64,000 nucleotides of DNA from Schlesneria sp. DSM 10557. GTDB taxonomy: Bacteria; Planctomycetota; Planctomycetia; Planctomycetales; Planctomycetaceae. Shown one piece after another: positions 41,288-56,656 of this stretch. Below the pieces are notes generated by a model. It ran no database searches, was not told the DNA's origin, and was given only the letters and a program-made list of their open reading frames with translations. The number at the start of each line of letters is the position of its first letter. Position 1 is the first letter of the stretch. The translations under genes and the position numbers were made by a program. The DNA is taken from the NCBI RefSeq assembly GCF_041860085.1, contig NZ_CP124747.1, positions 2,790,001-2,854,000 of the forward strand, written 5' to 3'.

Positions 41288-41498
41288 CACCAGCCCCCAA
41301 GCTCTACTCTGCCCAACCAGCCCCAGCGATCTCCTTGGATGACCGATCCAAGTTTGCCGTTTCAACGCGCAGCGGAGAAACGGCAAGCGGTACGAACGGC
41401 CAGCAGCGCCACCGGCTGGTAGAAACCGACTCGAAAGCAAGTGGTGGCACTTGACTCCGCGACGTCCCCCCTTCATCATAGCCGTCCCGCAATTTCAA

Positions 41499-41582
41499 GC
41501 CGAAGTGGCGGAACCGGCAGACGCGCTGGATTCAAAATCCAGTGTCAGCAATGACGTGTGGGTTCGAGTCCCACCTTCGGCA
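41499..41582 (+). tRNA. tRNA-Leu(CAA)
   Basis: An 84-nt class II cloverleaf: acceptor GCCGAAG/CTTCGGC with A73, D arm TGGCGGAACCGGCAGACGCGC, anticodon stem CTGGA/TCCAG around TTCAAAA (anticodon CAA, reads TTG), a long variable arm, and T arm GTGGG/CCCAC around TTCGAGT. It marks the left edge of the defence-like island, but I find no repeat of its 3' end downstream. Confidence 0.95.
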
Positions 41583-41920
41583 CTCCTTGCAAATCTCGCA
41601 GATTGCAAGCACAAACAAAGAGTCCGCCACCTCCACCGAATGCGGGAGTGGCGGATTTTTCGTTTTAATGCCACCGTCGTGCTCGCACTTTTAAGAGAGC
41701 TTGAGAAGCAAGGTGTTAAACTTGAAGTCAGCGCATCGGCTATTGTTAAATGGACAGGTATCAATTTTGCAGTTTTGGGTCTTACTCATGGTGGCACCCG
41801 AAAGTCCATGTGCGCTAGCCAGTCACACAACCCGCAAAGGACTTCAGGACTCGCGACAAGTAGAAGAATCGGCTTGGGACATATCCCACACAAAGTGAAA
41901 TCTTCAGACACTTAAGGACC
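41583..41920. other. 338-bp spacer after tRNA-Leu, before the methyltransferase
   Basis: It holds a strong terminator (41623-41660), then AT-rich sequence that should contain the methyltransferase promoter. Short open frames here have no ribosome-binding site and I do not call them. Confidence 0.5.
41623..41660 (+). terminator. Intrinsic terminator after tRNA-Leu
   Basis: TCCGCCAC (41623-41630) pairs with GTGGCGGA (41648-41655) around a 17-base loop that can pair further, followed by TTTTT (41656-41660). It ends the tRNA transcript and isolates the methyltransferase gene from it. Confidence 0.85.
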
Positions 41921-43525
41921 ATGCTGAGTGTGGAAAACATATCAATCCCAGTCATAGACATCTTCGCAGGCCCCGGCGGCCTTGGAGAAGGTTTTAGCTC
42001 ATTTGCAGTTTCCGGCCAGCATCCGTTCCGTATCGCCGTTTCAATTGAAAAAGACAGTTACGCGCACGAGACGCTGCGACTTCGAAGTTTCTTCCGGCAA
42101 TTCCGACGAGAAGACGTGCCGGACCTTTATTACCGCGTCCTTAAGCGTGAAATCCCGCTGACACAATTAGGTGCCGAAGCAGGAAGGTCGAGCGACCTGC
42201 GCAAAGCTTGGGAGAATGCCAATCGTGAAGCGATCTGCATGGAGCTTGGGCCACAAAACCACCAGCATGTCCGCGCCCGTATTTCGGAAGCGCTGGGAGG
42301 CAAAAGTCCATGGGTTCTGATAGGCGGCCCTCCGTGTCAAGCCTACTCGCTCGCCGGAAGAGTGCGAAACAAGGGAATCGAAAACTACAGGATTGAGGAC
42401 GATAAACGCTCGAAGCTCTACGAAGAGTACCTACACATCATCGCGGAGCATCAGCCGACGATCTTTGTCATGGAGAACGTCAAAGGGATGCTCTCTGCAA
42501 CCGTCGAGAACCAGAAGATATTCGAGAAGATTCTATCCGATTTGCAGTGCCCGGCTGGAAAGCAATCCTCGCTTCGCTATCGAATTGTTCCCATCGTTAC
42601 AGCATCTGAATCGAGCCATTACTCGGAAGACGATCCACGTCGGTTTATCGTACAATGCGAAGAGTATGGTGTTCCGCAGCAGCGCCATCGCGTGATTCTG
42701 GTCGGATTGATTGACTCAATCGGAGACGTATCTCCCCCTCCGCTTGTTCGCTCTCCTGCACCGACCGTGAAGTCTGTGATCGATTCGTTGCCCCGTTTAC
42801 GAAGTGGCCTCTCAAGGACTCGCGACAGCGGCAAGTATGTCGCGCTCGTTGATACGCATGAGGCGTGGTGTAACTCAATTCGCCGACAGGTCGGAAAAGA
42901 GGGGTATACAATTCCAAGCTGGTTGATCGACATCGACCATGACGTGCTGGAACAAATACTTTCCAGCGTCGATAAGATCAACAGGCCACGAAATGGTCGC
43001 GGAGATGACTACGTTCCCGTTGACGGCACCGTCGACGGGACGCACAGCCTGCATGACTTCTTGACAGATCCGCGGCTCCCGGGTGTGTGTAACCATGCGA
43101 CCAGGGCCCACATGGATACGGATCTGGTTCGGTACTTGTTTTGTACCGCTTTCGCGAAACAGCATGGTTACTCACCGCGGCTCGATGACTTTCCAAAGGG
43201 ACTGCTGCCTCAGCACCAGAACGCGACAACGGGTAACTTTAACGACCGATTTCGAGTTCAGCTCGCCAATGCTCCAGCCACGACCATCACATCCCACATT
43301 TCAAAGGATGGACACTACTTCATTCACTACGATCCAACTCAATGCCGGAGCTTGACCGTCCGGGAGGCTGCCCGGCTTCAGACGTTCCCCGACAATTACC
43401 TCTTCTGCGGGCCCAGAACACAGCAATACACACAGGTTGGGAACGCAGTTCCACCATGGATCGCCATGCAGATCGCCGAATCCATTTACAAGACACTTGC
43501 CGCAGCAGAACTGATCGACAGATGA
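41921..43525 (+). CDS. DNA (cytosine-5) methyltransferase
   Basis: 534 residues with the C5-MTase motifs in order: I VIDIFAGPGGLGEGF, IV GGPPCQAYS (catalytic Cys), VI FVMENVKGML, VIII QQRHRVILVG, IX RSLTVREAARLQTFPDNY and X QVGNAVPPWIA. It methylates cytosine in a sequence I cannot infer. The target-recognition region between VIII and IX is long (~190 residues). AAGGA lies only two bases before the ATG at 41921; a GTG three codons later has better spacing (11 bases), so the start may be 41930. Its TGA overlaps the ATG of the Vsr gene (43522-43525). Confidence 0.95.
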   Translation: MLSVENISIPVIDIFAGPGGLGEGFSSFAVSGQHPFRIAVSIEKDSYAHETLRLRSFFRQFRREDVPDLYYRVLKREIPLTQLGAEAGRSSDLRKAWENANREAICMELGPQNHQHVRARISEALGGKSPWVLIGGPPCQAYSLAGRVRNKGIENYRIEDDKRSKLYEEYLHIIAEHQPTIFVMENVKGMLSATVENQKIFEKILSDLQCPAGKQSSLRYRIVPIVTASESSHYSEDDPRRFIVQCEEYGVPQQRHRVILVGLIDSIGDVSPPPLVRSPAPTVKSVIDSLPRLRSGLSRTRDSGKYVALVDTHEAWCNSIRRQVGKEGYTIPSWLIDIDHDVLEQILSSVDKINRPRNGRGDDYVPVDGTVDGTHSLHDFLTDPRLPGVCNHATRAHMDTDLVRYLFCTAFAKQHGYSPRLDDFPKGLLPQHQNATTGNFNDRFRVQLANAPATTITSHISKDGHYFIHYDPTQCRSLTVREAARLQTFPDNYLFCGPRTQQYTQVGNAVPPWIAMQIAESIYKTLAAAELIDR

Positions 43526-43938
43526 CGGACCGCATTTCCCCAGAGCATCGAAGTTGGAACATGTCCCGCATCAGGAATCGAGACACAAAGCCAGAGCTGA
43601 TAGTCCGCTCGCTGCTCCACAGGATGGGCTATCGCTTCCGGCTGCACCGCAAGGATTTGCCCGGAAAGCCCGATATCGTGCTCCCCAAGTACCGGACAGT
43701 CATCTTTGTGCATGGCTGCTTCTGGCACCGGCATAAAGGATGCAGGTTCGCCTATACACCGAAATCAAGAATTGAATTCTGGAACGATAAGTTCGCTACG
43801 AACTGCAGGCGCGATGCATCCGTGATGGCTTCACTGGCTGAACGAGGATGGAACACCGTGATCATATGGGAATGCCAAGTATCTAACGCTTCATATCTCG
43901 CGAGGGTCCTTCCTTGGGTGTTGCGAAGACTTTCTTGA
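43522..43938 (+). CDS. vsr: Very short patch repair endonuclease
   Basis: 138 residues; the ATG overlaps the MTase stop as ATGA. Blocks RNRDTKPELIVRSLLHRMGYRFRLHRKDLPGKPDIVLPKY and TVIFVHGCFWHRHKGC are those of Vsr: the Asp in GKPDIV is the catalytic metal ligand and HGCFWH contributes zinc and the metal-binding His. Vsr nicks next to T:G mismatches made by deamination of 5-methylcytosine, and is usual beside C5 MTases. In restriction-type islands Vsr-fold proteins can also be the cutting enzyme. It meets the minus-strand operon tail to tail with an 18-bp gap. Confidence 0.94.
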   Translation: MTDRISPEHRSWNMSRIRNRDTKPELIVRSLLHRMGYRFRLHRKDLPGKPDIVLPKYRTVIFVHGCFWHRHKGCRFAYTPKSRIEFWNDKFATNCRRDASVMASLAERGWNTVIIWECQVSNASYLARVLPWVLRRLS

Positions 43939-43956
43939 ACAACCGGCGTTGCTGTT

Positions 43957-45096
43957 TTAAGACTGGCTGGACGAGCTAGTGGTATCCGGCGCGGACATTG
44001 GAAGCTGAACAAGGATTTCACAATTCAGATCTGGTTGCCCGATTCGACCAAGATATGAAGAATATCGCTGGATAAGATTTGGAAGAAACTGAGGTGAAAT
44101 GGTGGCGATTCGACCAGTAACCAGCTGGCTCGCGAGATCACGACCAACATTTGTGATCCGATCGAATTCAACCAACCATGGCCCCTGACCATCACAAACA
44201 GGAATGAAATGCTTACTCAAGGAATGATCTTGGCTGGCGTACCGGCGAGCAGCTTCGATTGCCTTATTTCGCTGATTCGCATCCCCGGCCGCCTTCTTAA
44301 GAATCTTTGTCCAGCTTTCCCCAACTGGAGTACACAGTGCAAGTGTCAACTCCATGGGATATTCGCAACGATCCATATTGCAACGAGGATTGAGAAGAAC
44401 ATATACTGAACCTTCGTATGTTACCAAGTCGCCTGTAACTAACCGATCTGCTTTCAGGGGTGGAACAAAGTAGAACTCGTCAGGATGGTGTTGACTCGTG
44501 TCCCCGAGCTTCTCGGCAACGTGTGCGACAACCTGACGGGTAATGACTTCTGTTGGACTCCAGTTGCCGGAAAGACTCGCCCACGTCTTACTCCACCGGG
44601 GCCAGATCGACTGATGGAACAACGTCGAGATTTCAGCGGATAGTTTTTCCCTCGTGCTGGCCATAGCTTCCATTAGACTGGCGTGAGAAAGCAAGTACTC
44701 CAAGATCCAGACTTGCGCCCCTCCCCGCTTGGTGACCACCTTAATGTGAGATGCCGAAACAATCTCACTGACTTCTTCTTCATAACCGCTATACACCACT
44801 GCAGGCATTCCTGATGACCGAAGGATTTGCCCGAGTACGGCGTTCCCGGATTCGGCTTTCGCATCAAGTGGGGTACTTGCGTGTGCCGCGGGAATTCGCA
44901 AGTCGACGATTGCACAATCAATATATGTGTTGCGGAGTATCTCCAGTGCATGCTCTTGATCACCAACAATAAGTGGTACAAAAGTGACAGAAGTGTTCTG
45001 GCGTGTATTGAACTCATCGATATCTCTACTCCAAGAGCCTTGTGTCTCAGTGTCATCTTCGACCAACAGGAGCGTTCGTTTAATTCTTTCAGGCAT
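43957..45096 (-). CDS. Receiver-domain protein paired with a GHKL kinase
   Basis: 379 residues from the ATG at 45096, eight bases inside the GHKL gene's 3' end. Residues ~6-130 read as a response-regulator receiver: TLLLVEDDTE (acidic pocket), IDCAIVDLRIP with the likely phospho-acceptor Asp65, VVYSGY, and KVVTKRGG with the conserved Lys. There is no DNA-binding domain I know after it; residues ~140-379 are unknown and end in a Ser run. Adjacent kinase-like GHKL protein makes phosphotransfer to Asp65 plausible. Output could be through the unknown C-terminal region. Such receivers without a known output occur in RM-like islands with GHKL proteins. Confidence 0.7.
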   Translation of the reverse strand: MPERIKRTLLLVEDDTETQGSWSRDIDEFNTRQNTSVTFVPLIVGDQEHALEILRNTYIDCAIVDLRIPAAHASTPLDAKAESGNAVLGQILRSSGMPAVVYSGYEEEVSEIVSASHIKVVTKRGGAQVWILEYLLSHASLMEAMASTREKLSAEISTLFHQSIWPRWSKTWASLSGNWSPTEVITRQVVAHVAEKLGDTSQHHPDEFYFVPPLKADRLVTGDLVTYEGSVYVLLNPRCNMDRCEYPMELTLALCTPVGESWTKILKKAAGDANQRNKAIEAARRYASQDHSLSKHFIPVCDGQGPWLVEFDRITNVGRDLASQLVTGRIATISPQFLPNLIQRYSSYLGRIGQPDLNCEILVQLPMSAPDTTSSSSQS

Positions 45097-47938
45097 CTGA
45101 CCGTCCTTCAGAATGGTTGGCCCGTAGATCGGCAAGCGGGAGAGTCAGAATGAAATGACCACCGTGTTCGTCTTGCACACATTCGATGCTACCACTGCTT
45201 CGTTCCATTGCTTCTCTAGCGATACTAAGGCCAAGTCCGGTTCCGCTTGGCTTGAGAGTGAAGCCAACGTCAAACACGCTGCCCACAAACTCAGTTGGCA
45301 CTCCTCGCCCATTGTCGACCACATGGAGCGACAAGCTGTCGTCATTAGAAATAAACGAAATAGTAATCGAAGGCGATTGTATGTGATGATAATCCAGCCA
45401 ATGCAATGCGTTGTCGACAACATTTGTTATCGCTGTCGACAGATCCGCCTCGTATCCTCGCACCTTTGCGTGCTCCGCGAACGGCAAGCCGGGAATAGCG
45501 ATGCCAAGACGTTCAATCCTTGTCCGAAAGAGGAAAAGCGTATCGGCAATTACAGTTGTGGTGTCAAACACTTTAGGCCGCCCTCGCCGGGCTCCGGAAA
45601 GTGGTTTCAAGGCATCAAAAAGAGCACGCAGTTTTCCAGCGCTGGAGACTAATCCGTTCAATACGGCAGGCACTTGGCCGCGCAGCGTTTCTGCTTCTGA
45701 GGTTTGCAGTAACAAACCCGGCCACCACCGTATGAGGCGAACCGACTCATTCTCAAGGAAGGACAATGGCGTATTTCCCTGGTGCATGACTTCACCAACT
45801 ATTAATCCAGCCGTCACCTGAGCTTCCAGCTTCGCCTGATGCTCTTCGAGCCGCTTTAAGTATGCAACGAGCTCACTGGACTCTTTTGCGATTAGTTTGG
45901 CAACCGCCTTACGGTCGGTCTCTGGCACTTTCTGCAAAACGTCATCGGACCATGTCATCTCTCCTTTCTGGTAAACGTCCTGAAAGCGGACTTCTCTTTT
46001 CGACTCAATGCCCGCAGTAGTTCGAAACAGCTTTCGTCTTGGCTCAACGACTCCTGACAGGAGATTCGAGATCAATGAATGGAGCCTTTGAAAGGATCCG
46101 TTTTCCTCCAATCCTTCCCGACTGCTACGTTCTGTCAATCCACTTGTGTCCTCACCTTCGACAGTAATAATCCCCGATATCTGGTTGTGGCCAATTCTAA
46201 GGGATGGGTTCTGGACTCGCTTAGTGTCCAAAGTCAGCCAGTCGTTTTCGGGATCTCCATACGGTCGAATACGAAATCCACTTCGGTAGATCCCAACTCC
46301 GCAGATGCGGTCGATGAGTTTCCTTGCTTCACGGACGCCAACAGTTCCGAAGCCCGCTTTCACAGCAGTCTGGCGTATAGCCTCGGCCTCGCGATCAAAA
46401 ATGTAGAGGTTCACGATCACCACGCCGCATGGTGATTCCCCCCTCTCCTGGGAAATTGGAACATCGACTGAGATCGGCTCCGGCCCTTGGCCGGCCCGAG
46501 CGATTGTCATCGAACCGTCAAAATGGCCGCTCTCGTCGAAGATTCCGTCAACGTGGTAATCAGCGGCATCCAAGACAGGAAAGGGCGAGACCTCCGCTAA
46601 TTCGTCAACGGATGCGTCGCTAGGCGTGCTTGGCGCCAGCTCTCTCATTAACGCATGGCCATCAAAACCTGCATTTTCGCGAGTGCATCGGGACAAATCG
46701 AGAAACATGCGGAAAACGTCACTGGATTCGCGGATTGGTGAAATAAGTCGCCGCAATTCGTAGTGAAGCGACCGGATTGTTGCCTCGGTCCAGTCGTCGC
46801 GGAGTTCTGTAATGTGCAGGGATGTACCCGTTGGGGCCGAATCAAGGGATGTGTCTGCCGGAATTCTTATTTGATCAAGATACTCAGCAGTCTCGAACGC
46901 GTTCCAGTCGATGCAGTCGATCACCGTTTGTTGATGCAGCCGATGTGGCTGCAACGATTGGCCGCTAATCTCAGCAGTTGAGATTAGCTTCAGTTTGCTA
47001 CCCAATCTTGCGGCTGCGAATCGACCAATACCCTTTGATCCGAGAAGTTGCCTTCCATTCGGGCTGGCTCTCCGATCACGCTTGTCGGTCGTAGCGGGCT
47101 CCATCCACTTATGCTCGATATCGCTGCGAGTCATTCCGTGGCCATCGTCATCAATGTAGATTGCGGCGATTCCATGTTGACTGGCTGGCTGAAAGGCAAT
47201 TCTCACGTATGACGAATCTGCGTCATGGCTGTTTTTGACGAGTTCGATGACAGCCGCCTCAGGACCACTGATAAGACGATCCCCAATGGTTCGTATGATC
47301 CTTGCTCGTGGACGGAAACCAAGACTCTGTGTCGGCCAGTATTGGGGCAAGCCAGATGGCCACAGTTCGCCGAACACGGAGAGTGAAACGGGCGTTTCGT
47401 CATCCCATCCTTCCGAATGTGCCTTTGAGTATATCGTCGCGTAGTCTTCGAGGAACACGTCGGGTGAGACGCCGAAGTGGTCGAAGAGAGTGCTTGCGAG
47501 TTCGTTTAGCCAAGCAACAGAACGGGTAGTTTCGGGTTTTTCCGACAGTTCCGCTTCAAATGCCATCGTAAATGCTTCAAGCACCACATGCTGTGTCGTA
47601 ACGAATACATCTGTTTCTGGCATATTGACTTCGTCCGCTGTCTTCCTTGCGCATGAGAGTGTCGCTGTAAGAGCAACGAATACAGCCTCGATGTCGTGGT
47701 GATCGAAGTGTTCAGGTCCAATCTCAATCACGGGGAACGAATCTTTCTTTCCTCCAGTTGACGCGCGCAATTCTGCGAGCTGAATCGCTTGCTGGACGGT
47801 ACTCCGCTGGACTGACGGCTCGGATTCGGCAAAGACGTACAGTGGGGTGATTCTACTTGCAGAACGAACGAGTAACGCCACTCGGGCCCAATGCGGAAGT
47901 GATTCAATTCGTTTCGTTGAAAGTGGTGTCGGCGACAT
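45089..47938 (-). CDS. Protein with two GHKL ATPase modules (MORC/MutL-like plus histidine-kinase-like)
   Basis: 949 residues from the ATG at 47938, 32 bp after the previous stop; an in-frame ATG at 48043 overlaps that gene more. GHKL module 1 (about 215-370): N box AAVIELVKNSHDAD, G1 DDDGHGM, G2 GSKGIGRFAAARLG, close to MORC/MutL/Hsp90. Module 2 (about 800-940): N box ITNVVDNALHWL, G1 VDNGRGV, and G2 PSGTGLGLSIAREAMERSSG, close to histidine kinases. About 120 residues before it, EVMHQGNTPLSFLENE resembles a kinase H-box. So one chain could have both a chromatin- or DNA-clamp-like ATPase and a kinase. Partner: the receiver protein downstream. Two modules on one chain is rare. Confidence 0.82.
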   Translation of the reverse strand: MSPTPLSTKRIESLPHWARVALLVRSASRITPLYVFAESEPSVQRSTVQQAIQLAELRASTGGKKDSFPVIEIGPEHFDHHDIEAVFVALTATLSCARKTADEVNMPETDVFVTTQHVVLEAFTMAFEAELSEKPETTRSVAWLNELASTLFDHFGVSPDVFLEDYATIYSKAHSEGWDDETPVSLSVFGELWPSGLPQYWPTQSLGFRPRARIIRTIGDRLISGPEAAVIELVKNSHDADSSYVRIAFQPASQHGIAAIYIDDDGHGMTRSDIEHKWMEPATTDKRDRRASPNGRQLLGSKGIGRFAAARLGSKLKLISTAEISGQSLQPHRLHQQTVIDCIDWNAFETAEYLDQIRIPADTSLDSAPTGTSLHITELRDDWTEATIRSLHYELRRLISPIRESSDVFRMFLDLSRCTRENAGFDGHALMRELAPSTPSDASVDELAEVSPFPVLDAADYHVDGIFDESGHFDGSMTIARAGQGPEPISVDVPISQERGESPCGVVIVNLYIFDREAEAIRQTAVKAGFGTVGVREARKLIDRICGVGIYRSGFRIRPYGDPENDWLTLDTKRVQNPSLRIGHNQISGIITVEGEDTSGLTERSSREGLEENGSFQRLHSLISNLLSGVVEPRRKLFRTTAGIESKREVRFQDVYQKGEMTWSDDVLQKVPETDRKAVAKLIAKESSELVAYLKRLEEHQAKLEAQVTAGLIVGEVMHQGNTPLSFLENESVRLIRWWPGLLLQTSEAETLRGQVPAVLNGLVSSAGKLRALFDALKPLSGARRGRPKVFDTTTVIADTLFLFRTRIERLGIAIPGLPFAEHAKVRGYEADLSTAITNVVDNALHWLDYHHIQSPSITISFISNDDSLSLHVVDNGRGVPTEFVGSVFDVGFTLKPSGTGLGLSIAREAMERSSGSIECVQDEHGGHFILTLPLADLRANHSEGRSDA

Positions 47939-47970
47939 ACGGGGTGTCTCGCGAGGAATGTCAGTGAATC

Positions 47971-48720
47971 CTATTGGAACCGATCGAACTCCTTGGGCAG
48001 TAGAGCAACCACTGCGTTTGTATCCATTGCGTATAGATCCCACGTGAGATCGAATTGTTTGTAGACGTCAACCAGACGTCTGACTGTTCCAGGTTTGCCG
48101 CGAGTTCGGCCGTTGAGCTTTTCGTAAGAGGTGGCACCTTTCTTAGGAAGCGTCGTTATTTCATCCAAGTATAGTGCGGTTGCAGTCGCTAGCAGCGATG
48201 CGTTTGTGACCAGCTCCTGCCTAGAAGCCAGCTGCTCGACGATATCTCCAGGCTGGTGAAGAGGTCCACAGAGGAGAATCATCGCCTTTTCGGGGTTGGT
48301 TCGATGAGTGTGAAAGATCCGAAAAGGGCCGGCAAGGAGATGACGGTAATAGCGAAAGGCACGTCCCGAATCTGGAACCCAGCGGGCATCTTCGCCTGGC
48401 GTTCGTTTCCCCTTTTTGTCCGGGGGGCAAAGCTCTTCGAAGTAGAGCAGCGAAAGCCACGCCCAGAGCCCTCGATCCTGATCGATGTTGCCGAGTCCCG
48501 TACCGCTGAGCCGCTCGTGCAGGTACCGGGCGGCTGCGAAGCGACTGCCGAACGCCCGCTGCTCGATGTCGACTTCCACGTCGCCAAGGTCTTGCGAGGT
48601 CGAATCATGATCAAGGATCTCGACCGGGGCGGCGAGGCTGGAATCCAATTTCACGGCATGGAGAAACTCCAGAAGCCTTGCCATGCCTTGCTCATTTAAT
48701 CTGCGGAGCGTTGCCATCAA
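47971..48720 (-). CDS. Unknown island protein 1
   Basis: 249 residues (ATG at 48720, immediately followed by a second ATG at 48717). The stop of the upstream gene ends one base before this start. The protein is mixed alpha/beta with a conserved-looking core WAWLSLLYFEELCPPDKKGKR and RYYRHLLAGPFRIFHTH; I recognise no fold or catalytic motif. It sits between two GHKL-type genes in a coupled operon, so it is presumably part of the same complex or pathway. The label 'hypothetical' is all the sequence supports. Confidence 0.75.
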   Translation of the reverse strand: MMATLRRLNEQGMARLLEFLHAVKLDSSLAAPVEILDHDSTSQDLGDVEVDIEQRAFGSRFAAARYLHERLSGTGLGNIDQDRGLWAWLSLLYFEELCPPDKKGKRTPGEDARWVPDSGRAFRYYRHLLAGPFRIFHTHRTNPEKAMILLCGPLHQPGDIVEQLASRQELVTNASLLATATALYLDEITTLPKKGATSYEKLNGRTRGKPGTVRRLVDVYKQFDLTWDLYAMDTNAVVALLPKEFDRFQ

Positions 48721-48721
48721 G

Positions 48722-49474
48722 TCATCCTTTCTGCCAGGCGTTCATGAAGGATGTGAGGACTTGCTTTTGTCGTGCAAAGGAGGACACGACGTCGTCAATC
48801 CATCCGGGGCGGGCATCTTTGTCCTCGGGACACTCCGCAACACCAGGAAGTGAAATGGCGAAGCGGAGCCACCGTGCATGAGGGGATTCATCGTCATCGG
48901 GGTCGCTGGCATCATCGATTACGAGCAAGTGGGTCAGCACTGAACGCAAGATGGCTGGTGCCGTCAGCGCCTGAAATATCGGCGATGTCGCTGCGGCCCG
49001 CCAGTCTCCGACATTCCGGTTGATAAGCAGAACCGGAGTCTGCTCCATCTCAACGCGATAGACTTCGTCGCCGATATCAGCCGGCCTGACATTCAGCAGC
49101 GGCGATCGCTCATCGTCGTCGTCCATTTCACCGACCGGGCGAATCTGATCGGCTTCACCAAGCATTTTTCCGGAGTTTTCACCCGATGCGGTAACCCGCA
49201 CCCGAAACCGTATTTCGTCTGGCGAATCGAACTCCGTGAGTTTCGTGTCGACGGGGCGGACGATTCCCTTCACTGATCCGAAGGAAAAACGCATCCACGT
49301 CGTCTGCCGGTATGCCTCCACGAAGACCAGGGAATCCGCAGGGAATTCGTAACCGGTTAAGGAAAGTTCGGCCGCGAACTCGGGCGGGCTGTCCTTAGGA
49401 ATGTTTAAGGTAATCTGGACATCGCGACGGTTGATCTTCTGCAAACCGGTGTAATTGAAGCGACTAATTGCCAT
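48722..49474 (-). CDS. Unknown island protein 2
   Basis: 250 residues from the ATG at 49474, 11 bases inside the upstream GHKL gene; a longer frame begins 17 codons earlier. The first ~110 residues are beta-rich (YTGLQKINRRDVQITLNIP, TGYEFPADSLVFVEAYRQTTWMRF), resembling a small-barrel or C2-like module. A helical C-terminal part follows with an acidic Asp run (DDASDPDDDESPH). No catalytic motif seen. Its position, coupled on both sides, implies a joint role with the GHKL proteins. Confidence 0.75.
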   Translation of the reverse strand: MAISRFNYTGLQKINRRDVQITLNIPKDSPPEFAAELSLTGYEFPADSLVFVEAYRQTTWMRFSFGSVKGIVRPVDTKLTEFDSPDEIRFRVRVTASGENSGKMLGEADQIRPVGEMDDDDERSPLLNVRPADIGDEVYRVEMEQTPVLLINRNVGDWRAAATSPIFQALTAPAILRSVLTHLLVIDDASDPDDDESPHARWLRFAISLPGVAECPEDKDARPGWIDDVVSSFARQKQVLTSFMNAWQKG

Positions 49475-51425
49475 CGGTCGCCTCCTGTTCCAGCACCCGA
49501 ACGAATAGGTTTCGGCGCTCGTCAAAGCCGGTCACGTTCAGTTTGAATTCCGGCTTCAGGACTTGGGCAATGAGCCGATTTCCTCCGGCGGAAACCAATT
49601 TGATGTTCTCTGCCAGTTCCTTTGGGGAACTGATCGATAGCTTTGCGAGGTCGAAATCTGTGCGATACCAAGACTTCAACGGGTTCCTCGTCCGGTCGTC
49701 ATAAGCGACTTCAACCAGCAACTGTTCTGGTTGCCGGGCTTCCGGATCTCCGCTGGCAATCGAGAAGCCCCCCTTCGACTTCGTGACTCGAAATCCCTTA
49801 GGCTTCGGCGGTGGTAGTTCAACAGGATCATCCGTTGTCGAATCTGGATCATCCTCTTTCTTAGGCTTCTTCTTCCGGGTTTTGAGTGAGTCGTCTTTCT
49901 TCGGCAAGGGCAGAGAGAAGAGATCGATTAGCACAGTCGGGTCTTCCTCTACGTCAGACTCGGTGAGCAGTCGAAGAATCTCTGCTACGCTGTTGGCGAC
50001 AAACTCAATGTTTGCCACACCCGTTTCATACTTGTGGCGATAGTGGGAGCACTCCTTCTGCCACTGTGTGTGTGCCGGATTCTCAGAGTCTCCCAGCAGT
50101 GTTGCCAAAGGCCGGTCGGTGACCAGTACCAATGAGGCTACACCGTGGGTAGTTCTTCCCCGGACATCAGAGATCGTGATTCCGTCTCGGACGTAGATGG
50201 GGCGTCCGCGCTTCTCCGAACCATCGGTTGCGAGGAAAACGTCGAACCAAGACCATTGTGGCTCTTTCTTTTTCTCCCGTACCGGTATCGGAATGCGAAT
50301 CGCGATGCGGTCGCCAGCCTTGAATCGACTGCGGAGAACTTCAATCCCCTTATCCGGGAAAAGTTCGGGCGTCCACTTTGGTGCCCGATTCGCCGCGGGA
50401 CGATTCAAAAGAAACTTGTCCGATTCCTTGAGGCTTCTCGCCCATTCAGAGAGCTGAATGACCGGCATCAACGGACGGCTGCGTTCGAAATGATTCGCGG
50501 CGTCAGCCAGATTGGACTGATCCAAAGTTGTCATGACGTTATCCGGCCCAACGATCTCGACGACGAGCTCTCCAGAGAGAATTGGGTAGAAGTATCCGAT
50601 TACGACAGCATGGAGGATAGTTTCGGTCGTGATCTCGTCGTCATCGTAGAATGGGACCACGATCGAAAGACCCGACTCGTGACCACGCAACAGTCCGAAG
50701 GTTTCGCAGAACTGGGCGATCGTCTTGTCATCGGAGACGGGAAGTACAATTGAGCTTCCATCGACTTTGACTCCAAAGTAACCATCCGGAACGCACGTTG
50801 TGCCGTTTGAAAGATCATGCGACTTGAGAATCGTTCTGCCCATTAGGAGTCGCGCACCATCCAGTTCCCGCCGGGTGAGTGCCCAGAACGAACTAATACG
50901 ACTCGCGCGAGGAAAGACGGTCTTGCCAACTCCCCACCGCCCCCGGTCAGTTTCGCTCTTGTCCGAATGGCCCTCAGCTCGAAAGAAATTGAAGAATCTG
51001 TTCTCTCTCCCCAAGACTTTCTTCCACTGAGTCGAGTCACCAGTAAGACCTGAGGTTCCAAAATCTTCAAATGTCAAAAAAGTACAGGGCTGATCCTGCT
51101 TTGGCAGATTGTTAAGACCGTTGCCTGGAGCGTGAAGATGCTTCCAATTTTCCGCGAGGAAAGGAGCAGCTAGCTGCGGGGAAATTCCTTGAGAACTGCC
51201 CGAAATCCGGATTCGGACTCGCAGTACATCCTTTCCCCAAGGTGTAGCTGTAGTTGTCCGTCGCGCGTCGAGTGAGTTTTGAATTCCTTCTCGAACTAAA
51301 GCATCAGCGCTATTTTCGATGGCTTCTGTGGCGAAGAACTCACCCTGAATAGGATCACGAACAGTGTCTCCCTCTTGAAGAGTCTTGAAGTGCCAAGTCG
51401 GGAGCGGCCCGTTCATCTGTGACAT
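49464..51425 (-). CDS. GHKL ATPase, first gene of the island operon
   Basis: 653 residues; GGGGGG about nine bases before ATG 51425. The N-terminal GHKL domain shows LVREGIQNSLDAR (N box, residues ~43-55), FEDFGTSGLTG (G1, Asp121) and GRWGVGKTVFPRAS (G2/P loop-like, ~163-174). The rest (~180-640) is an unknown beta-rich region, with a Lys/Asp-rich stretch around residue 545. The GHKL type is neither a standard kinase nor MutL; it belongs with Hsp90/MORC-like proteins common in restriction-type islands. It is first in the operon and may be the sensor or the mechanical part. Confidence 0.8.
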   Translation of the reverse strand: MSQMNGPLPTWHFKTLQEGDTVRDPIQGEFFATEAIENSADALVREGIQNSLDARRTTTATPWGKDVLRVRIRISGSSQGISPQLAAPFLAENWKHLHAPGNGLNNLPKQDQPCTFLTFEDFGTSGLTGDSTQWKKVLGRENRFFNFFRAEGHSDKSETDRGRWGVGKTVFPRASRISSFWALTRRELDGARLLMGRTILKSHDLSNGTTCVPDGYFGVKVDGSSIVLPVSDDKTIAQFCETFGLLRGHESGLSIVVPFYDDDEITTETILHAVVIGYFYPILSGELVVEIVGPDNVMTTLDQSNLADAANHFERSRPLMPVIQLSEWARSLKESDKFLLNRPAANRAPKWTPELFPDKGIEVLRSRFKAGDRIAIRIPIPVREKKKEPQWSWFDVFLATDGSEKRGRPIYVRDGITISDVRGRTTHGVASLVLVTDRPLATLLGDSENPAHTQWQKECSHYRHKYETGVANIEFVANSVAEILRLLTESDVEEDPTVLIDLFSLPLPKKDDSLKTRKKKPKKEDDPDSTTDDPVELPPPKPKGFRVTKSKGGFSIASGDPEARQPEQLLVEVAYDDRTRNPLKSWYRTDFDLAKLSISSPKELAENIKLVSAGGNRLIAQVLKPEFKLNVTGFDERRNLFVRVLEQEATDGN

Positions 51426-51812
51426 ATGCTATTTCCCCCCAGATCGAAGTGTTCCCATGTTTACGACAACGTGAAAAAATTTTCAACTGGCGAGAAAAGT
51501 AGATTTCATGCTGTGTACCGTGACATGGGGCTGACCTATGTCGGACTTTCAGGCGGGGGACAGGATTTTCGATGGTTCTCGAAGTTACCAAAACGCAGAA
51601 AACACAGAATTCGGGATAGCTCGAGTCGACGTTCGGAGCGGGGCTTCATGTCTTTGATCAGTTACCAGGATTTGCATTCACGTCAGTCGATCGAAGGTTT
51701 TTCGGTTCCGGGAGTCGCTTGATCGTTTTATTGATTCACGCTACTGAGCATGATTGGCATCTTCCTGGCATGGATTTTGGCCAGGTTGTCGCGACAGGTA
51801 AGGATACAGTGA
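51426..51812. other. Gap of 387 bp between the island operon and the HEAT gene
   Basis: The left end carries the likely promoter of the minus-strand island operon (51458-51486). The rest includes a frame starting at 51426 that has no ribosome-binding site or similarity I recognise. No copy of the tRNA-Leu 3' end is present, so this edge of the island is not marked by an att repeat. Confidence 0.45.
51458..51486 (-). promoter_or_regulatory. Candidate promoter of the GHKL island operon
   Basis: On the minus strand TTGAAA (51481-51486) lies 17 bases before TAAACA (51458-51463). It is 32 bp from the ATG at 51425, so the leader is short, and a G-run ribosome-binding site fits between. Confidence 0.4.
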
Positions 51813-53054
51813 ATGCGTGAGGTCAGTTCTCTCAAATTGGTGCTGAGATGGATGACGACTTTGGCGGTCGTCGCCTGGTCCCTGTTCGGTTGGTACCACC
51901 TCTTTTCACAGAGCGGAAGTTACCCGATAGGCCCTCAGGACTACGGAACTCCTCTCACTTTCAGGCGAGACTACTACGATGATGTTGTTCTGTATTTTCC
52001 CCAGGCCCTTCTGTTTGATGTCGCAGTGGCGGCACTCGTAGTGCTCGCGGTGGCTTACAGTTTGTGGACCTGGTCCGCAAACTGGTCGATTGAGTTCTAC
52101 TGTAAGTTCCTCCTGGTGCTCTCTGTCTGCACAGTGATCCTCATTTTCGGAGTTCGGATTCATTTGATCCTGCTTCTGCCGAGTGCACTTTTACTACTGG
52201 TCGGAGGTCTGGGCATCTGGCTGACGAGTGTGGCATATGCCTCCGCGAAGACAGGCGGATACCTCTTCGGGCCGAAGGGAACTCTGTTGCTTCCCCTCGC
52301 GTTGACGGTAGGAATGTTAGTCCTTGGCTGGCAATGTTGGCCTCAGGATATCTTTGAAAGAGGCAGCAAGGATCCAGGCCGAGTTGTCGCTCTGGTCGCG
52401 CGATTGCAGGACGACAATCCCCGGGTGCGGTCGCTGGCCCTTCGTGCATTGCAAGATCACGGCCCTTTCGAGGCCCCTGCAGCAGCAGCGATTATCCAGG
52501 CCATGTCTGACCCCGATGATCGAGTTCAGGAAGACGCAATCTCCCTGGCACGCCAACTGGGTCCGGCTGCCATCGAAGCGGTACCGATCATTCTTGACAA
52601 GTTCAATCAGGGAGGCAGGTCCGCGTTCCTGTTCGCATCCCGACTCGCAGAACTGGGCCCCACCGCTAAGGCTGCTGTTCCTGATCTTAAGGAGAAGCTG
52701 CCTGCGTCAACAGATTATTCCAAACTCAAGATCTGCGCCGCACTATGGAAAATTGAAGGGAATACCACTCTCGTTGTTCCAGCGCTGATCGAATTGTTAG
52801 ACGATGAATTTGGACCAATCCGCAGGGACGCAGCGACGCTCTTGGGACAGATTGGCCCCGAAGCGGCGGACGCCGTACCAGCGCTAAAGGCGATGGTTGA
52901 TCACGTACCAGAAGCTGACACGCCTGAGCCGGAAGAAGAGAAAGAGGAAGCCTCCTCACTCCCCCGTCCCGGCAAGATGTCTGACGCAGAATTCTATCCT
53001 CAAATCCGCAGCGCCGCACAACTCGCCCTGACCCGGATCCTTCGGTCTGAATAG
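51813..53054 (+). CDS. Membrane-anchored HEAT-repeat protein
   Basis: 413 residues. The first ~170 residues contain four to five membrane segments (LRWMTTLAVVAWSLFGWYHLF, ALLFDVAVAALVVLAVAYSLW, LLVLSVCTVILIFGV, LLLVGGLGIWL). From ~190 to 405 HEAT-type helix pairs follow (RVRSLALRALQDHGPFEAPAAAAIIQAMSDPDDRVQEDAISLARQLGP, in part), with an acidic linker EPEEEKEEASS. HEAT proteins are scaffolds; a surface or membrane scaffold role is likely. It stands alone next to the repeat/RAYT locus. Confidence 0.85.
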   Translation: MREVSSLKLVLRWMTTLAVVAWSLFGWYHLFSQSGSYPIGPQDYGTPLTFRRDYYDDVVLYFPQALLFDVAVAALVVLAVAYSLWTWSANWSIEFYCKFLLVLSVCTVILIFGVRIHLILLLPSALLLLVGGLGIWLTSVAYASAKTGGYLFGPKGTLLLPLALTVGMLVLGWQCWPQDIFERGSKDPGRVVALVARLQDDNPRVRSLALRALQDHGPFEAPAAAAIIQAMSDPDDRVQEDAISLARQLGPAAIEAVPIILDKFNQGGRSAFLFASRLAELGPTAKAAVPDLKEKLPASTDYSKLKICAALWKIEGNTTLVVPALIELLDDEFGPIRRDAATLLGQIGPEAADAVPALKAMVDHVPEADTPEPEEEKEEASSLPRPGKMSDAEFYPQIRSAAQLALTRILRSE

Positions 53055-53154
53055 ACATCAACTCCAGTAGTGCGTCAAAGTGCAACCGTACTCACCCAAG
53101 CCACCAAGTCGACAACCCGGAAACGTATCAGAGCCGCCCGCTCGGCCACACAAC

Positions 53155-53514
53155 CCCAACAAATAAAGCTCTCCTCCGACCCTGTGTCGGTGGGAGCAAC
53201 GACTGAACCGCTAACGACAACCGCACAAACCCCAAACAAAGAAGCTCTCCTCCGACCCCGTGTCGGTGGAAGCAACGACTGAACCGCTAAAGACAACCAC
53301 ACAACCCCAAACAAAGAAGCTCTCCTCCGAACCCGTGTCGGTGGAAGCCACGACTGAACCGCTAAAGACAACCGCACAAACCCCAAACAAAGAAGTTCTC
53401 CTCCGAACCTGCGTCGGTGGGAGCAACGACTGAGCCCCTAACACAACCGCACAAACCCCAAACAAAGAAGCTCTCCTCCGACCCTGTGTCGGTGGGAGCA
53501 ACGACTGAGCCGCT
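53155..53514 (-). repeat. REP-like array upstream of the RAYT gene (five 75-76-bp units)
   Basis: Units containing GCTCTCCTCCGAC start at 53168, 53244, 53319, 53395 and 53470. Read on the minus strand, each has AGCGGCTCAGTCGT, then CCACCGAC and GTCGGAGG, which form a hairpin with an A.A mismatch. The same core makes up the array after the gene, in the opposite orientation. Sequence between cores differs in the two arrays. The last unit ends right at the ATG at 53515. Confidence 0.88.
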
Positions 53515-54309
53515 ATGGAGCCGATCTACACCTCTGCGACGGTGACTCCCGCCTATCAGTTACGGTGGTCGCTGTCGCTGTTCGCCGGCCAGCCCTTACC
53601 CGCCTCGGACCTTTGGCTGTCAGAGCTCAGGCAGAAGGTGGAGGAGGACGGTGTGCGGATCCTTGAGGCGCAATCACGCCATGGAAATACCTGGCAGTTC
53701 TTTCTCTCGACACGGCCGGAGGTGGCTCCCCCTTCCATCGTGAAGTCTGTGAAGGGACGGCTGCAACACCTGGTTCGAGAGACCGCACCCAAAGCGTTCC
53801 GCAGAAATTTTCTGCTGGCGGCGATCGGTAATGCGAAACGGGAGGTGGTCGAGTCGTACGTGGCATCTCAACTGGATCATCATCGTATGGCCGACGATCG
53901 AGTTCAGAGCGCTCTGCAGCGATTTCAACTGGCCTTCCCCGAGGTGGACCTGTCGCAGAGACAGACGACGGCGCATGGGGCGTACCTCTACAACATGCAC
54001 CTGGTGCTGGTGCATGCCGGACGCTGGAATGAGGTTCGTGAAGAAGCACTGGCTGGCACCCGAGATATGGTGCTTCGGATCGCTCATGCCAAGGGACATC
54101 GGATCTCTCGCCTCGCGTTGTTGCCTGACCACCTGCATCTTCTGGCGGGTTTTCCTGCGACTTCGTCCCCTGAAGAGATCGCACTCGGCTACCTGAACAA
54201 CCTGGCCTACGCTCACGGAATGCGGCGGATCTTTTCTTTCAGTTACTACGTGGGGACTGTGGGAGAGTTTGACACCGGGGTGATCCAGGCCGCACTTGAT
54301 CGCTCTTAG
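53515..54309 (+). CDS. Y1/RAYT-like transposase (REP-associated)
   Basis: 264 residues. LLPDHLHLLAGFP (HUH motif: His-Leu-His at ~206-208) and SYYVGTVGEFDTGVIQAAL near the end are those of the Y1_Tnp/TnpA-REP family. The first half (WQFFLSTRPEVAPPSIVKSVKGRLQHLV, VVESYVASQLDHH, in part) looks like a second Y1-type module that has lost its HUH pair, so the protein may be a tandem pseudo-dimer. The catalytic Tyr is not certain; the tyrosines of SYYVGTVG are candidates. RAYTs mobilise REP elements; the gene's start codon abuts one REP-like array and its TAG stop lies inside the first unit of the other array. Confidence 0.65.
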   Translation: MEPIYTSATVTPAYQLRWSLSLFAGQPLPASDLWLSELRQKVEEDGVRILEAQSRHGNTWQFFLSTRPEVAPPSIVKSVKGRLQHLVRETAPKAFRRNFLLAAIGNAKREVVESYVASQLDHHRMADDRVQSALQRFQLAFPEVDLSQRQTTAHGAYLYNMHLVLVHAGRWNEVREEALAGTRDMVLRIAHAKGHRISRLALLPDHLHLLAGFPATSSPEEIALGYLNNLAYAHGMRRIFSFSYYVGTVGEFDTGVIQAALDRS

Positions 54310-54940
54310 CCGCTCAGTCGTGGCTGCCACCGACGCTGGGTCGGAGGAGAGCTCTTGGGTGGGGCTGCTTTCTGCTCTCAGCCGCTCAGTCGTGGCTTCC
54401 ACCGACGCGGGGTCGGAGGAGAGCTCTTGGGTGGGGCTGCTTTCTGCTCTCAGCCGCTCAGTCGTGGCTTCCACCGACGCGGGTCGGAGGAGAGCTCTTG
54501 GGTGGGGCTGCTTTCTGCTCTTAGCCGCTCAGTCGTGGCTTCCACCGACGCGGGGTCGGAGGAGAGCTCTTGGGTGGGGCTGCTTTCTGCTCTCAGCCGC
54601 TCAGTCGTGGCTTCCACCGACGCGGGGTCGGAGGAGAGCTCTTGGGTGGGGCTGCTTTCTGCTCTTAGCCGCTCAGTCGTGGCTTCCACCGACACAGGGT
54701 CGGAGGAGAGCTCTTGTGTGGGGCTGCTTTCTGCTCTTAGCCGCTCAGTCGTGGCTTCCACCGACGCGGGGTCGGAGGAGAGCTCTTGGGTGGGGCTGCT
54801 TTCTGCTCTTAGCCGCTCAGTCGTGGCTTCCACCGACACAGGGTCGGAGGAGAGCTCTTGTGTGGGGCTGCTTTCTGCTCTTAGCCGCTCAGTCGTGGCT
54901 TCCACGCGGGGTCGGAGGAAAGCGGATTGGTTTGGGTGCG
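54308..54940 (+). repeat. REP-like array downstream of the RAYT gene (72-bp units)
   Basis: Units begin AGCCGCTCAGTCGTGG at 54308, 54380, 54452, 54523, 54595, 54667, 54739, 54811 and 54883 (eight complete, 71-72 bp, and a shortened ninth). Each carries CCACCGAC-GCGGG-GTCGGAGG, a stem of nine positions with one A.A mismatch, followed by GAGCTCTTGGGTGGGG. Copies are 95% or more alike by eye. A more diverged copy is at about 54945-55010. Because 72 is divisible by three, long frames run through the array; these are not genes. Confidence 0.9.
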
Positions 54941-55300: not shown

Positions 55301-56656
55301 TTGGAACTCGAACATTGTCATTCAGGTGATTCGGCGAAGGGTGTGAGGAGGGGGGAGCCGTCGCGGCGAGGGGGGTGTTTGACTGACGTGGATGCGGAGG
55401 GGGACTTGGGAACTGGTGTGCAGGAGGGGTTTGTTTCGCGGTGTGTTGAGGAGCTGGAGGCTCGGCCGTTTGTCTGGCTGTGGGGTGAACTGGTGGCGCG
55501 GGGAATGGTGACGAGCCTGGCTGGTGCTTCCGGTATCGGAAAGTCGTTCGTGGCGGTCGATGTGGCGGCTGCGGTGACGCGGGGTGATCGGATGAGCTTG
55601 CGAACGTCGAATACCTCGTCCCCGGCTCACACCGGCGACGGCGACGGGGGTGAGGTGCTGTTCATCTCGCCGGATTATGAAATGGCGGAAGTCCTGCGGC
55701 CGCGATTACTGGCGGCCGGGGCAGAGATGCGCCGCATTCGTGTGATCCAGGGAATTCCCACGAACGAAGCGGATCACCGGGGGAACGGATGCCGGCCGTT
55801 CCAGCTAAGGGACGATCTGGCGCTGCTGGAACAGGAGATCGAACGACGAACCGCGGCGGGTTCTCCCTTGCAACTGATCGTGATTGATCCGTTCCTGCAG
55901 GATTCTTCGTTCGAGCAGAGCCGTTTCGATGGGACGGCCCTGCTGTTGACGATGCAGCGTCTGGCGGGCATTGCGGCCGCGAATCAGGTCGCCATTTTGC
56001 TGGTGGTGAACGGCCCGGCCAAAGCCAGAGCCGCTGGGAATCACCGTTTGACGCCGCTGGAGTTGGTCGCTCCATCGGCTTGGTGGATCGGCCGTGATCC
56101 TGATCGCACGGAACGTCGGTTGCTGTTGCCCGTCAAAGCCAATCTGGTTGAGAGAACGCCTGCCCGCTCCTTTGTGCTCAGTGCAGGTCGCGTTGAATGG
56201 GACCGCCGGCCGATCTGGCTGACGGCCGAGCGGTTTCAGACCGAAATGCGGGAGCGGCAGCGACTTCCCTTGTTTGAGCAGGAATTCAGCGAGCTGGCAC
56301 GGGCGATGTGCTGGCTGCGGGATTTCATGCAGACGGAGATGTATGAATTCAAGCAGGTGAAGTCCGCGGCGGATGTGATGGGCTTCAGCGAAAGAACATT
56401 GCGACGGGCGTTTTGTGGGTTGAAAGGAAACTCGTGGCGAATCCCCGGGACAAACTCCTGGGCCTGGAGGTTACGAGAGGGGGATGTCGTGAATCCGCAC
56501 CTTCCCTGGCCGCTCGATCGGTTTCTCTATCAGGAAGATGATGAACCTGCGGAGGGAGACGTTGCCCACGCTGCAGGAGCGGAGGGAGTCGAGACCGGGC
56601 GAGTCAAAACTCAGGAAGTGGCGGTGGGAGATCGTGAGTCCGGGAGGGACGATTGA
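55301..56656 (+). CDS. RepA-like AAA ATPase
   Basis: 451 residues from a TTG start with GAGGAGGAGG eight bases upstream. Walker A is GASGIGKSF (around residue 77); Walker B-type strand LIVIDPFLQD; and NQVAILLVVNG supports an AAA_25/RecA-like fold as in RepA and phage replication helicases. The C-terminal ~120 residues include a winged-helix-like segment (VKSAADVMGFSERTLRRAFCG). It resembles the ATPase part of the satellite helicase but without DnaB_N. It may be a remnant of another integrated element; the nearby decayed tRNA and REP arrays support that. Confidence 0.8.
   Translation: MELEHCHSGDSAKGVRRGEPSRRGGCLTDVDAEGDLGTGVQEGFVSRCVEELEARPFVWLWGELVARGMVTSLAGASGIGKSFVAVDVAAAVTRGDRMSLRTSNTSSPAHTGDGDGGEVLFISPDYEMAEVLRPRLLAAGAEMRRIRVIQGIPTNEADHRGNGCRPFQLRDDLALLEQEIERRTAAGSPLQLIVIDPFLQDSSFEQSRFDGTALLLTMQRLAGIAAANQVAILLVVNGPAKARAAGNHRLTPLELVAPSAWWIGRDPDRTERRLLLPVKANLVERTPARSFVLSAGRVEWDRRPIWLTAERFQTEMRERQRLPLFEQEFSELARAMCWLRDFMQTEMYEFKQVKSAADVMGFSERTLRRAFCGLKGNSWRIPGTNSWAWRLREGDVVNPHLPWPLDRFLYQEDDEPAEGDVAHAAGAEGVETGRVKTQEVAVGDRESGRDD

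Follow-up and report, generated by a model that had tools for sequence, protein, structure and literature searches.

A methyltransferase-Vsr locus of Schlesneria sp. DSM 10557 that joins a paraMORC2-type triad to a kinase-receiver pair

What might seven adjacent genes be doing together when they encode a C5 cytosine DNA methyltransferase (MTase), a Vsr-family endonuclease, three GHKL modules, a receiver domain and two further small proteins? Such a set lies in the genome of Schlesneria sp. DSM 10557 (assembly GCF_041860085.1, contig NZ_CP124747.1), within positions 41921–51425 of the 64,000 nt analysed here (forward strand 2,790,001–2,854,000; hereafter the window, whose numbering is used for all locus coordinates). 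An earlier note had described a defence-like island at this place; its seven reading frames, their strands and the ATGA overlap that joins the MTase and Vsr genes are as it gave them (Table 1), and its view of the set as restriction-modification (R-M)-like and of defence type agrees with the MORC-type GHKL proteins, C5 MTase and Vsr that we found, together with a histidine kinase (HK) and receiver-domain protein (RR) whose key residues are present. The seven genes form two modules, a core of MTase, Vsr and a triad of proteins, P7, P6 and P5, and an add-on of HK and RR, and we read the locus, with a probability of roughly 0.5, as a defence system that resembles restriction and is linked to methylation, with a phosphorelay plugged into it. 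Because the ends of the P7, P6, P5, HK and RR genes overlap or are tight, their arrangement suggests a single operon, in which the HK-RR pair stands between P5 and Vsr and, counted from the probable starts, begins 32 nt past P5. Two of the three GHKL modules are in HK (recognised by Pfam) and the third is in P7 (recognised by its motifs and the PADLOC model PDC-M33A).

Table 1. Genes of the Schlesneria locus, in window positions
Product	Position	Strand	Evidence or remark
C5 cytosine DNA methyltransferase (MTase), 534 aa	41921–43525	+	Pfam DNA_methylase 1.5e-44; PADLOC DrmMII/MTase_II models
Vsr-family very-short-patch endonuclease, 138 aa	43522–43938	+	Pfam Vsr 6.1e-32; TIGR00632 150 bits vs cut-off 98
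Receiver-domain protein (RR), C-terminal domain without assigned function	43957–45096	-	probable ATG 45096
Soluble histidine kinase (HK)	45089–47938	-	probable ATG 47938
P5, almost all-alpha (predicted), 248 aa	47971–48717	-	AlphaFold2 model; hhalign to DUF6339 set
P6, predicted beta-sandwich (Ig/FN3-like) with C-terminal helices, possible adaptor, 250 aa	48722–49474	-	AlphaFold2 model
P7, paraMORC2-type GHKL ATPase, 653 aa	49464–51425	-	PDC-M33A 2e-21; ExxxH E448-H452

The P7-P6-P5 triad and its neighbours

Residues of P7, HK and RR are numbered as in the translations of the open reading frame list, and their assignments follow GHKL, receiver and MTase motif consensuses that we take to be the usual ones. 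In P7 the GHKL motif residues, E448 and H452 are invariant among 31 aligned sequences, so that the protein has both the GHKL motifs and the C-terminal ExxxH given as the mark of the paraMORC2 family (Iyer, Abhiman and Aravind 2008, PMC2292703). Its match to PDC-M33A (74 bits, the best stretch covering profile positions 104–279 of 627) is weak beside those of two other planctomycete loci, L024 (441 bits) and L023 (471 bits). Sequence searches found no significant solved relative of P5, P6 or P7.

Relatives of P7 numbered 272 across 84,980 species genomes, and the best 80 were kept; these 80 span Planctomycetota, Verrucomicrobiota, Pseudomonadota, Nitrospirota, Acidobacteriota, Chloroflexota and other phyla. 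When family profiles of P6 and P5 were applied to the 71 of these loci whose downstream flank is 1.7 kb or longer, P6 was found in 65, P5 in 62 and both in 62, with P7 alone in six of the remaining nine and P7 with P6 in three; because both proteins accompany P7 in 62 of 71 loci with room for them, the triad is a unit. When 294 genomes of the phylum were searched separately, P7 matches occurred in 13 including the window, the nine full-length or nearly full-length ones outside it accompanied, according to a rough open reading frame caller, by both P6 and P5 in six cases and by one of them in three, while the three partial matches were PDC-M33A-type proteins; none of the nine belongs to the 16 other family members searched. 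Matches to P7 proper were also obtained on one plasmid and one viral contig.

The neighbours of the triad were counted in the 38 of 80 loci flanked by 4 kb or more on each side, 32 of which hold the complete triad: a C5 MTase lies within 3 kb in 17 of these 32, a Vsr within 4 kb in 16, and both are there in 16. Of the co-occurrence in other genomes that the earlier note proposed to check, that of MTase and Vsr with the triad was thus seen, while the five-gene operon was never found in full elsewhere. Across all 80 loci, whatever their flank length, MTase matches numbered 26 and Vsr matches 23, and clustering of the neighbouring proteins ranked C5 MTase as the commonest family (26 loci), followed by Vsr (17) and then by a family in seven. 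The C5 MTase is thus the commonest partner of the triad and not an obligatory one, because there are complete triads without it and genomes without a match to it. PDC-M33A matches were also obtained on 22 plasmids, and in four of the five that we inspected the PDC-M33A relative is close to R-M or MTase genes: a MutH/Sau3AI-family endonuclease and dcm in Priestia, a type II endonuclease and dcm in Paenarthrobacter, an N6 methylase, S subunit, further methyltransferase and helicase in L. salivarius, and a C5 MTase and Vsr in Deinococcus, where the other triad genes are annotated 'hypothetical'. The fifth, from L. lactis, has an AlwI-type endonuclease ~3.5 kb from the PDC-M33A relative, and AbiGI/GII.

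P5 is the least understood part of this widespread triad. Its AlphaFold2 model, built on a 60-sequence alignment, is almost all-alpha and confident (mean predicted local distance difference test score, pLDDT, 96), and in Foldseek searches it had no match at E ≤ 0.001 in PDB or BFVD. Aligned by hhalign to a three-sequence DUF6339 set, P5 was collinear over 212 columns (E 4e-5, probability 70%), and P5 is probably a distant relative of DUF6339/PDC-M33C; hidden Markov models gave no match to PDC-M33C (at E ≤ 0.1) or DUF6339 for P5 or its 59 relatives. P6 was modelled from 69 sequences as a beta-sandwich with a helical C-terminus (pLDDT 91.6, predicted template modelling score 0.65), and the 50 Foldseek matches shown for it were mostly FN3, receptor or antibody-type domains at E ≥ 0.058 and probability ≤ 0.80, on which basis P6 is possibly an adaptor. 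The PDC-M33B model had no match at E ≤ 0.1 in P6 and 68 relatives, nor did hhalign relate P6 to the only two PDC-M33B sequences available, so that profile searches of the two proteins, as the earlier note had proposed, gave a probable family for P5 and left P6 without a recognised relative. Its idea that one of them might cut DNA found no backing: neither model matches a nuclease significantly in Foldseek, and we rejected both as the missing nuclease. Among their relatives we saw weak, unconvincing matches to NucS_C (E 0.21, one relative) and CheR_N (four of 60, best 0.0012).

Two further families were seen beside P7. In seven planctomycete loci (L042, L044, L046, L047, L049, L057 and L068) the same ~320-aa gene adjoins P7; four of them (L042, L044, L049 and L068) lack P6 and P5 despite having room, L046 has both, and the stretches of L047 and L057 end too early to be scored. 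This hints that the P7 copies concerned are vertically inherited and perhaps domesticated. A family of ~210–270-aa proteins, which may be a regulator or fourth component, is encoded upstream of P7 in L052, L075, L080, L084 and L097.

The kinase-receiver pair

The kinase consists, in order, of a ~205-aa N-terminal extension, a HATPase_c_3 domain of MORC/Hsp90 type, a DHp domain and a HATPase_c domain. The motif residues of both ATPase domains are present, and a family profile of HK matched two-component kinases over the DHp and catalytic domains and MutL, Hsp90 and MORC proteins over the N-terminal ATPase domain; it was through this match to solved kinases, not through Pfam, that the DHp was recognised, with its HQGNTPL box and phospho-His H754. 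The family profile of RR likewise matches response regulators in PDB, and its key residues (D27/D28, D78, S116 and K136) are all there, as phosphotransfer from HK to RR would require.

The closest relatives of HK (L142, L143, L150 and L135) are 49–51% identical to it over residues ~28/52–970, and all four have the combination of the ~205-residue extension and HQGNTPL that marks the window's kinase subtype. Three of them (L142, L143 and L150) lie in viral contigs, for which reason prophages may carry the kinase-receiver pair; these three came from a separate viral scan, as a viral scan with the HK extension alone returned none. Among 360 gammaproteobacteria the N-extended kinase was found only in Lysobacteraceae 2PB, on which that search was centred. 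Relatives of RR are rare, with three in 349 Pseudomonadota and two in 247 Bacteroidota (at 1e-25), and three besides the window among 347 genomes of its own class (at 1e-20), none of them in the 12 same-genus genomes listed within that search.

Plasmids and viral contigs supplied further loci. Among 27 kinase loci examined, 19 were counted as receiver loci since the receiver model reaches 1e-15 in them; the other eight (L141, L143, L145, L146, L149, L151, L152 and L154) fall below this cut-off. A C5 MTase match lies within 3 kb in 17 of the 19 receiver loci and a Vsr within 4 kb in 10. The order MTase-HK-RR-Vsr is found in L139, L140 and L153 and MTase-HK-RR in L136 and L138, these last two and L203 having an MTase with no Vsr match beside the kinase-receiver unit.

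Methyltransferase ancestry and the joining of the modules

The two modules were not found joined at one locus outside the window. No receiver match occurred in the 80 triad loci, many of which are short stretches (38 reach 4 kb of flank on either side), and none of the 27 kinase loci, hence none of the 19 receiver loci, has a match to P7, P6 or P5 at 1e-3. The former count led us to reject HK and RR as an ancestral part of the core.

The MTase tree has 43 rows. Among the loci, L015 and L100 are one stretch under two names, as are L014 and L084. The window MTase falls in a clade (support 100/100) of 18 rows, comprising 16 triad rows (15 loci, L015 and L100 being one), the window itself and the kinase-receiver locus L144. 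A separate clade (100/98) is made up of eight kinase-receiver MTases, and a third (100/99) is mixed, with the triad loci L041, L067, L069 and L084 (L067 and L069 being nearly identical) and the kinase-receiver loci L137 and L150; all six encode a protein resembling the EcoRII-type endonuclease from L014. A clade of short MTases is also mixed, with L018 and L080 against L141, plus a long-branched L143; in this clade the tree tool warns of long branches. The same MTase lineages are therefore paired with the triad, with the kinase-receiver unit or, here only, with both. For Vsr, the closest matches to the window protein are from triad loci L097 and L034 (67–68% identity) and the top four are all triad-linked (58–68%); the Vsr tree itself is poorly resolved, its labels clustering no more than by chance. 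Relatives of the EcoRII-type endonuclease (matching the L014 protein, Pfam EcoRII-C, with E of 1e-31 or below) were seen beside the triad in L019, L041, L067, L069 and L084 and beside the kinase-receiver pair in L137 and L150.

In three triad loci (L034, L045 and L072) the genes P7, P6 and P5 run towards convergent Vsr and MTase genes, with at most 36 nt before Vsr, which is the window layout without HK and RR. Because the window MTase belongs to the triad-linked clade and these three relatives share the layout without the pair, insertion of the kinase-receiver pair between P5 and Vsr looks like the simplest history. A possible alternative is that the triad was added to a convergent layout of the L137 type, in which MTase, Vsr and EcoRII-like genes face RR and HK and there is no triad; the MTase tree speaks against it. 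Lysobacteraceae 2PB was the only other cellular genome found with the window kinase subtype. Its triad lies with a window-type MTase and Vsr on one contig and its kinase-receiver pair on another, where the pair is near the contig end and the next gene fragment encodes the N-terminal part of an MTase of the window type (47% identity, 81 columns aligned); 2PB was the one genome among 16 triad genomes searched with a full-length receiver match.

The island has a low G+C content. Attachment at the adjoining tRNA-Leu was rejected, since 41480–52000 contains no direct repeat of the tRNA. aroC is present in all 15 genus genomes, the window genome included; no empty insertion site was recognised in kin, as the 13 kin stretches compared (of 14) align to the window only at aroC, plus one 177-nt piece elsewhere, and in eight family stretches aroC was the sole gene with a window match. 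Past the P7 end of the island are a HEAT-repeat protein whose N-terminal half is hydrophobic (51813–53054, +) and an AAA_25-type protein (55301–56656, +). Between them, an IS200-like (Y1) transposase-type gene (53515–54309, +) is flanked by tandem arrays of 75-nt units (4.9 copies) and 72-nt units (8.7 copies), the repeats covering 53147–53515 and 54302–54923; this looks like a REP-associated transposase with its repeats.

One system or several, and its known relatives

Sequence and models give the order and families of the genes, the catalytic motifs, the ancestry of the MTase, the place of the pair when set beside relatives and the lack of a recognisable nuclease in P5 and P6; a defence role, complex formation, a sensed signal, phosphotransfer and joint action of the seven genes are inferred. 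In the five-gene core the MTase would mark a host DNA sequence as self, and P7, P6 and P5 would form an ATP-driven clamp or looping complex on unmethylated or damaged invading DNA, so that the restriction side of the core would be an ATP-driven complex of MORC type. MutL works with Vsr in very-short-patch (VSP) repair. The window's Vsr would repair T:G mismatches arising from deaminated methylated cytosines and may double as a restriction nickase; together with the triad it could act by DNA looping between recognition and cleavage sites, as has been proposed for these ATPases (Iyer 2008, PMC2292703). HK and RR would add a switch, with the N-terminal MORC/Hsp90-type ATPase domain of HK sensing some state tied to infection (through DNA, a nucleotide or a GHKL partner), H754 becoming phosphorylated and the phosphate passing to D78 of RR. 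As no DNA-binding domain was recognised in RR, it would switch the core through contact rather than through transcription. A bolder form of this proposal, which we hold tentatively and consider rather doubtful, is that the phosphorelay directly gates the restriction machine, a MORC/Hsp90-type sensor kinase acting through phosphorylated RR to switch a paraMORC2 complex whose target is unmethylated DNA, a classical restriction enzyme not being involved, and that HK-RR is a portable control module for several systems marked by 5-methylcytosine (5mC), e.g., EcoRII-type R-M, Mza-like and PDC-M33-like ones.

Several points weigh against the reading of the locus as a restriction-like defence system with a phosphorelay. 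Its chief weakness is the co-function of the composite, since the combination is seen once, with zero reciprocal matches (0/80 and 0/19), and the case for it therefore rests on operon structure, the shared MTase-Vsr pair and the swapping of modules in the tree; the co-occurrence in 2PB is biased, as that genome was picked for its triad. No restriction endonuclease domain was recognised by Pfam in the seven proteins or by the structure models, which covered P5 and P6, so that a dedicated endonuclease as in type II R-M was not found; PADLOC and NCBIfam restriction endonuclease matches of HK fall within its N-terminal GHKL region. Vsr, the sole recognised nuclease of the locus, clearly belongs to the repair family by its score. 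Nor does methylation always seem necessary for the triad: 15 of the 32 well-flanked complete triads lack a C5 MTase within 3 kb, and in 20 of the 21 genomes behind 22 of the 54 MTase-less loci nothing matched the window MTase at E ≤ 1e-10, the 21st having a 76-residue piece. In HK the phospho-His precedes Gln, as in the rest of the window subtype, whereas the 22 aligned kinases outside it all have Glu or Asp at this position; the kinase may be less active as a result. We came across neither expression nor phage data on the locus.

The strongest rival, which we consider possible if on the whole unlikely, is that the locus holds two neighbouring systems independent of each other: a PDC-M33-like triad together with its MTase and Vsr, next to a kinase-receiver unit able to function by itself or in partnership with any C5 MTase, their co-transcription being accidental, as in many defence islands. 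Each module indeed occurs without the other, the kinase-receiver units elsewhere accompany an MTase alone or an MTase with Vsr, and in 2PB the modules are on different contigs. Against this, HK-RR sits exactly between P5 and Vsr, a single MTase-Vsr pair serves both modules, and either module is partnered by the same MTase lineages, which suits interchangeable modules of one process.

We regard as improbable that the triad works on its own, against phage or in genome maintenance, and independently of methylation, with MTase and Vsr merely frequent companions. The MTase-less complete triads and the 20 genomes with no MTase match (behind loci that lack an MTase or have P7 alone) would fit this, as would six planctomycete loci where P7 has no detectable P6 or P5 despite room and the vertical inheritance suggested by the ~320-aa neighbour common to seven P7 loci. 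Yet C5 MTase leads the neighbouring families (26 loci against 17 and seven), PDC-M33 relatives on plasmids are also near R-M or MTase genes, and the absence of MTase is weak evidence where many of the genomes are metagenome-assembled and a single query was used. That the locus is one of DNA repair with no defence role, Vsr correcting deaminated 5mC with help from MutL-like GHKL proteins as MutL assists Vsr, appears very improbable: Vsr is a true family member and MORC/paraMORC proteins with Vsr have been likened to MutL in mismatch and VSP repair (Iyer 2008, PMC2292703), but the patchy distribution of P7 in its phylum and family, the plasmid PDC-M33 relatives near R-M genes, the low G+C of the island and the many triads with neither MTase nor Vsr nearby all speak against it.

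For the locus as a restriction-like defence system with a phosphorelay, our search of published papers found neither a named system with the complete seven-gene set nor a functional test of either module. The earlier note's statement that it knew no named system with this set thus stands for the whole, while both halves have known counterparts: a relative of PDC-M33ABC, and kinase, receiver, C5 MTase and Vsr as in the account of PMC8011034. A figure of predicted, unvalidated systems in PMC13092281 has HATPase and REC among its abbreviations, which possibly concern the same kind of pair. The paraMORC2 R-M operons of PMC2292703 are, in its treatment of them, largely tied to superfamily II (SFII) helicases or nucleases of the restriction endonuclease (RE) fold, none of which was recognised in the window set, and the sections of that paper on these operons do not describe P6 and P5. 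In GHKL-Shedu VcSduA, as presented in PMC12137116, a GHKL ATPase domain is proposed as the regulator of a nuclease that acts in defence against phage, with experimental tests; there the nuclease is fused to GHKL, whereas none was recognised in the partners of P7.

Closer to the triad is PDC-M33, a PADLOC candidate with components A, B and C in the same order of GHKL protein, ~285-aa protein and DUF6339 protein. The planctomycete loci L023 and L024 match all three models strongly, with DUF6339 as the third protein and C5 MTase and Vsr adjoining; because the window triad matches the A model only, it appears to be a diverged sister of PDC-M33 and not a member. The add-on resembles the HEF_HK/Response_reg_2 pair as set out in Bellieny-Rabelo 2021 (PMC8011034), with a soluble kinase of N-terminal HATPase_c_3 and C-terminal HATPase_c, an adjacent receiver without known output domain and C5 MTase and Vsr neighbours. 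At E ≤ 1 we found no PF19191 or PF19192 match in the window HK and RR, nor in the kinases and receivers of E. mori, Hymenobacter and Campylobacter or the receiver of Fusobacterium, the presence of both models in the Pfam set being unchecked. The window kinase combines HATPase_c_3, DHp and HATPase_c beside a receiver and near a C5 MTase, and it differs from the pair in that account by HQGNTPL in place of H-E/D, by the ~205-aa extension and by the triad upstream. The components, and the link of each module with C5 MTase and Vsr, are thus published or catalogued, and what is new here is the joining of the two modules, which raises the testable question of whether two-component relays control restriction-like immunity.

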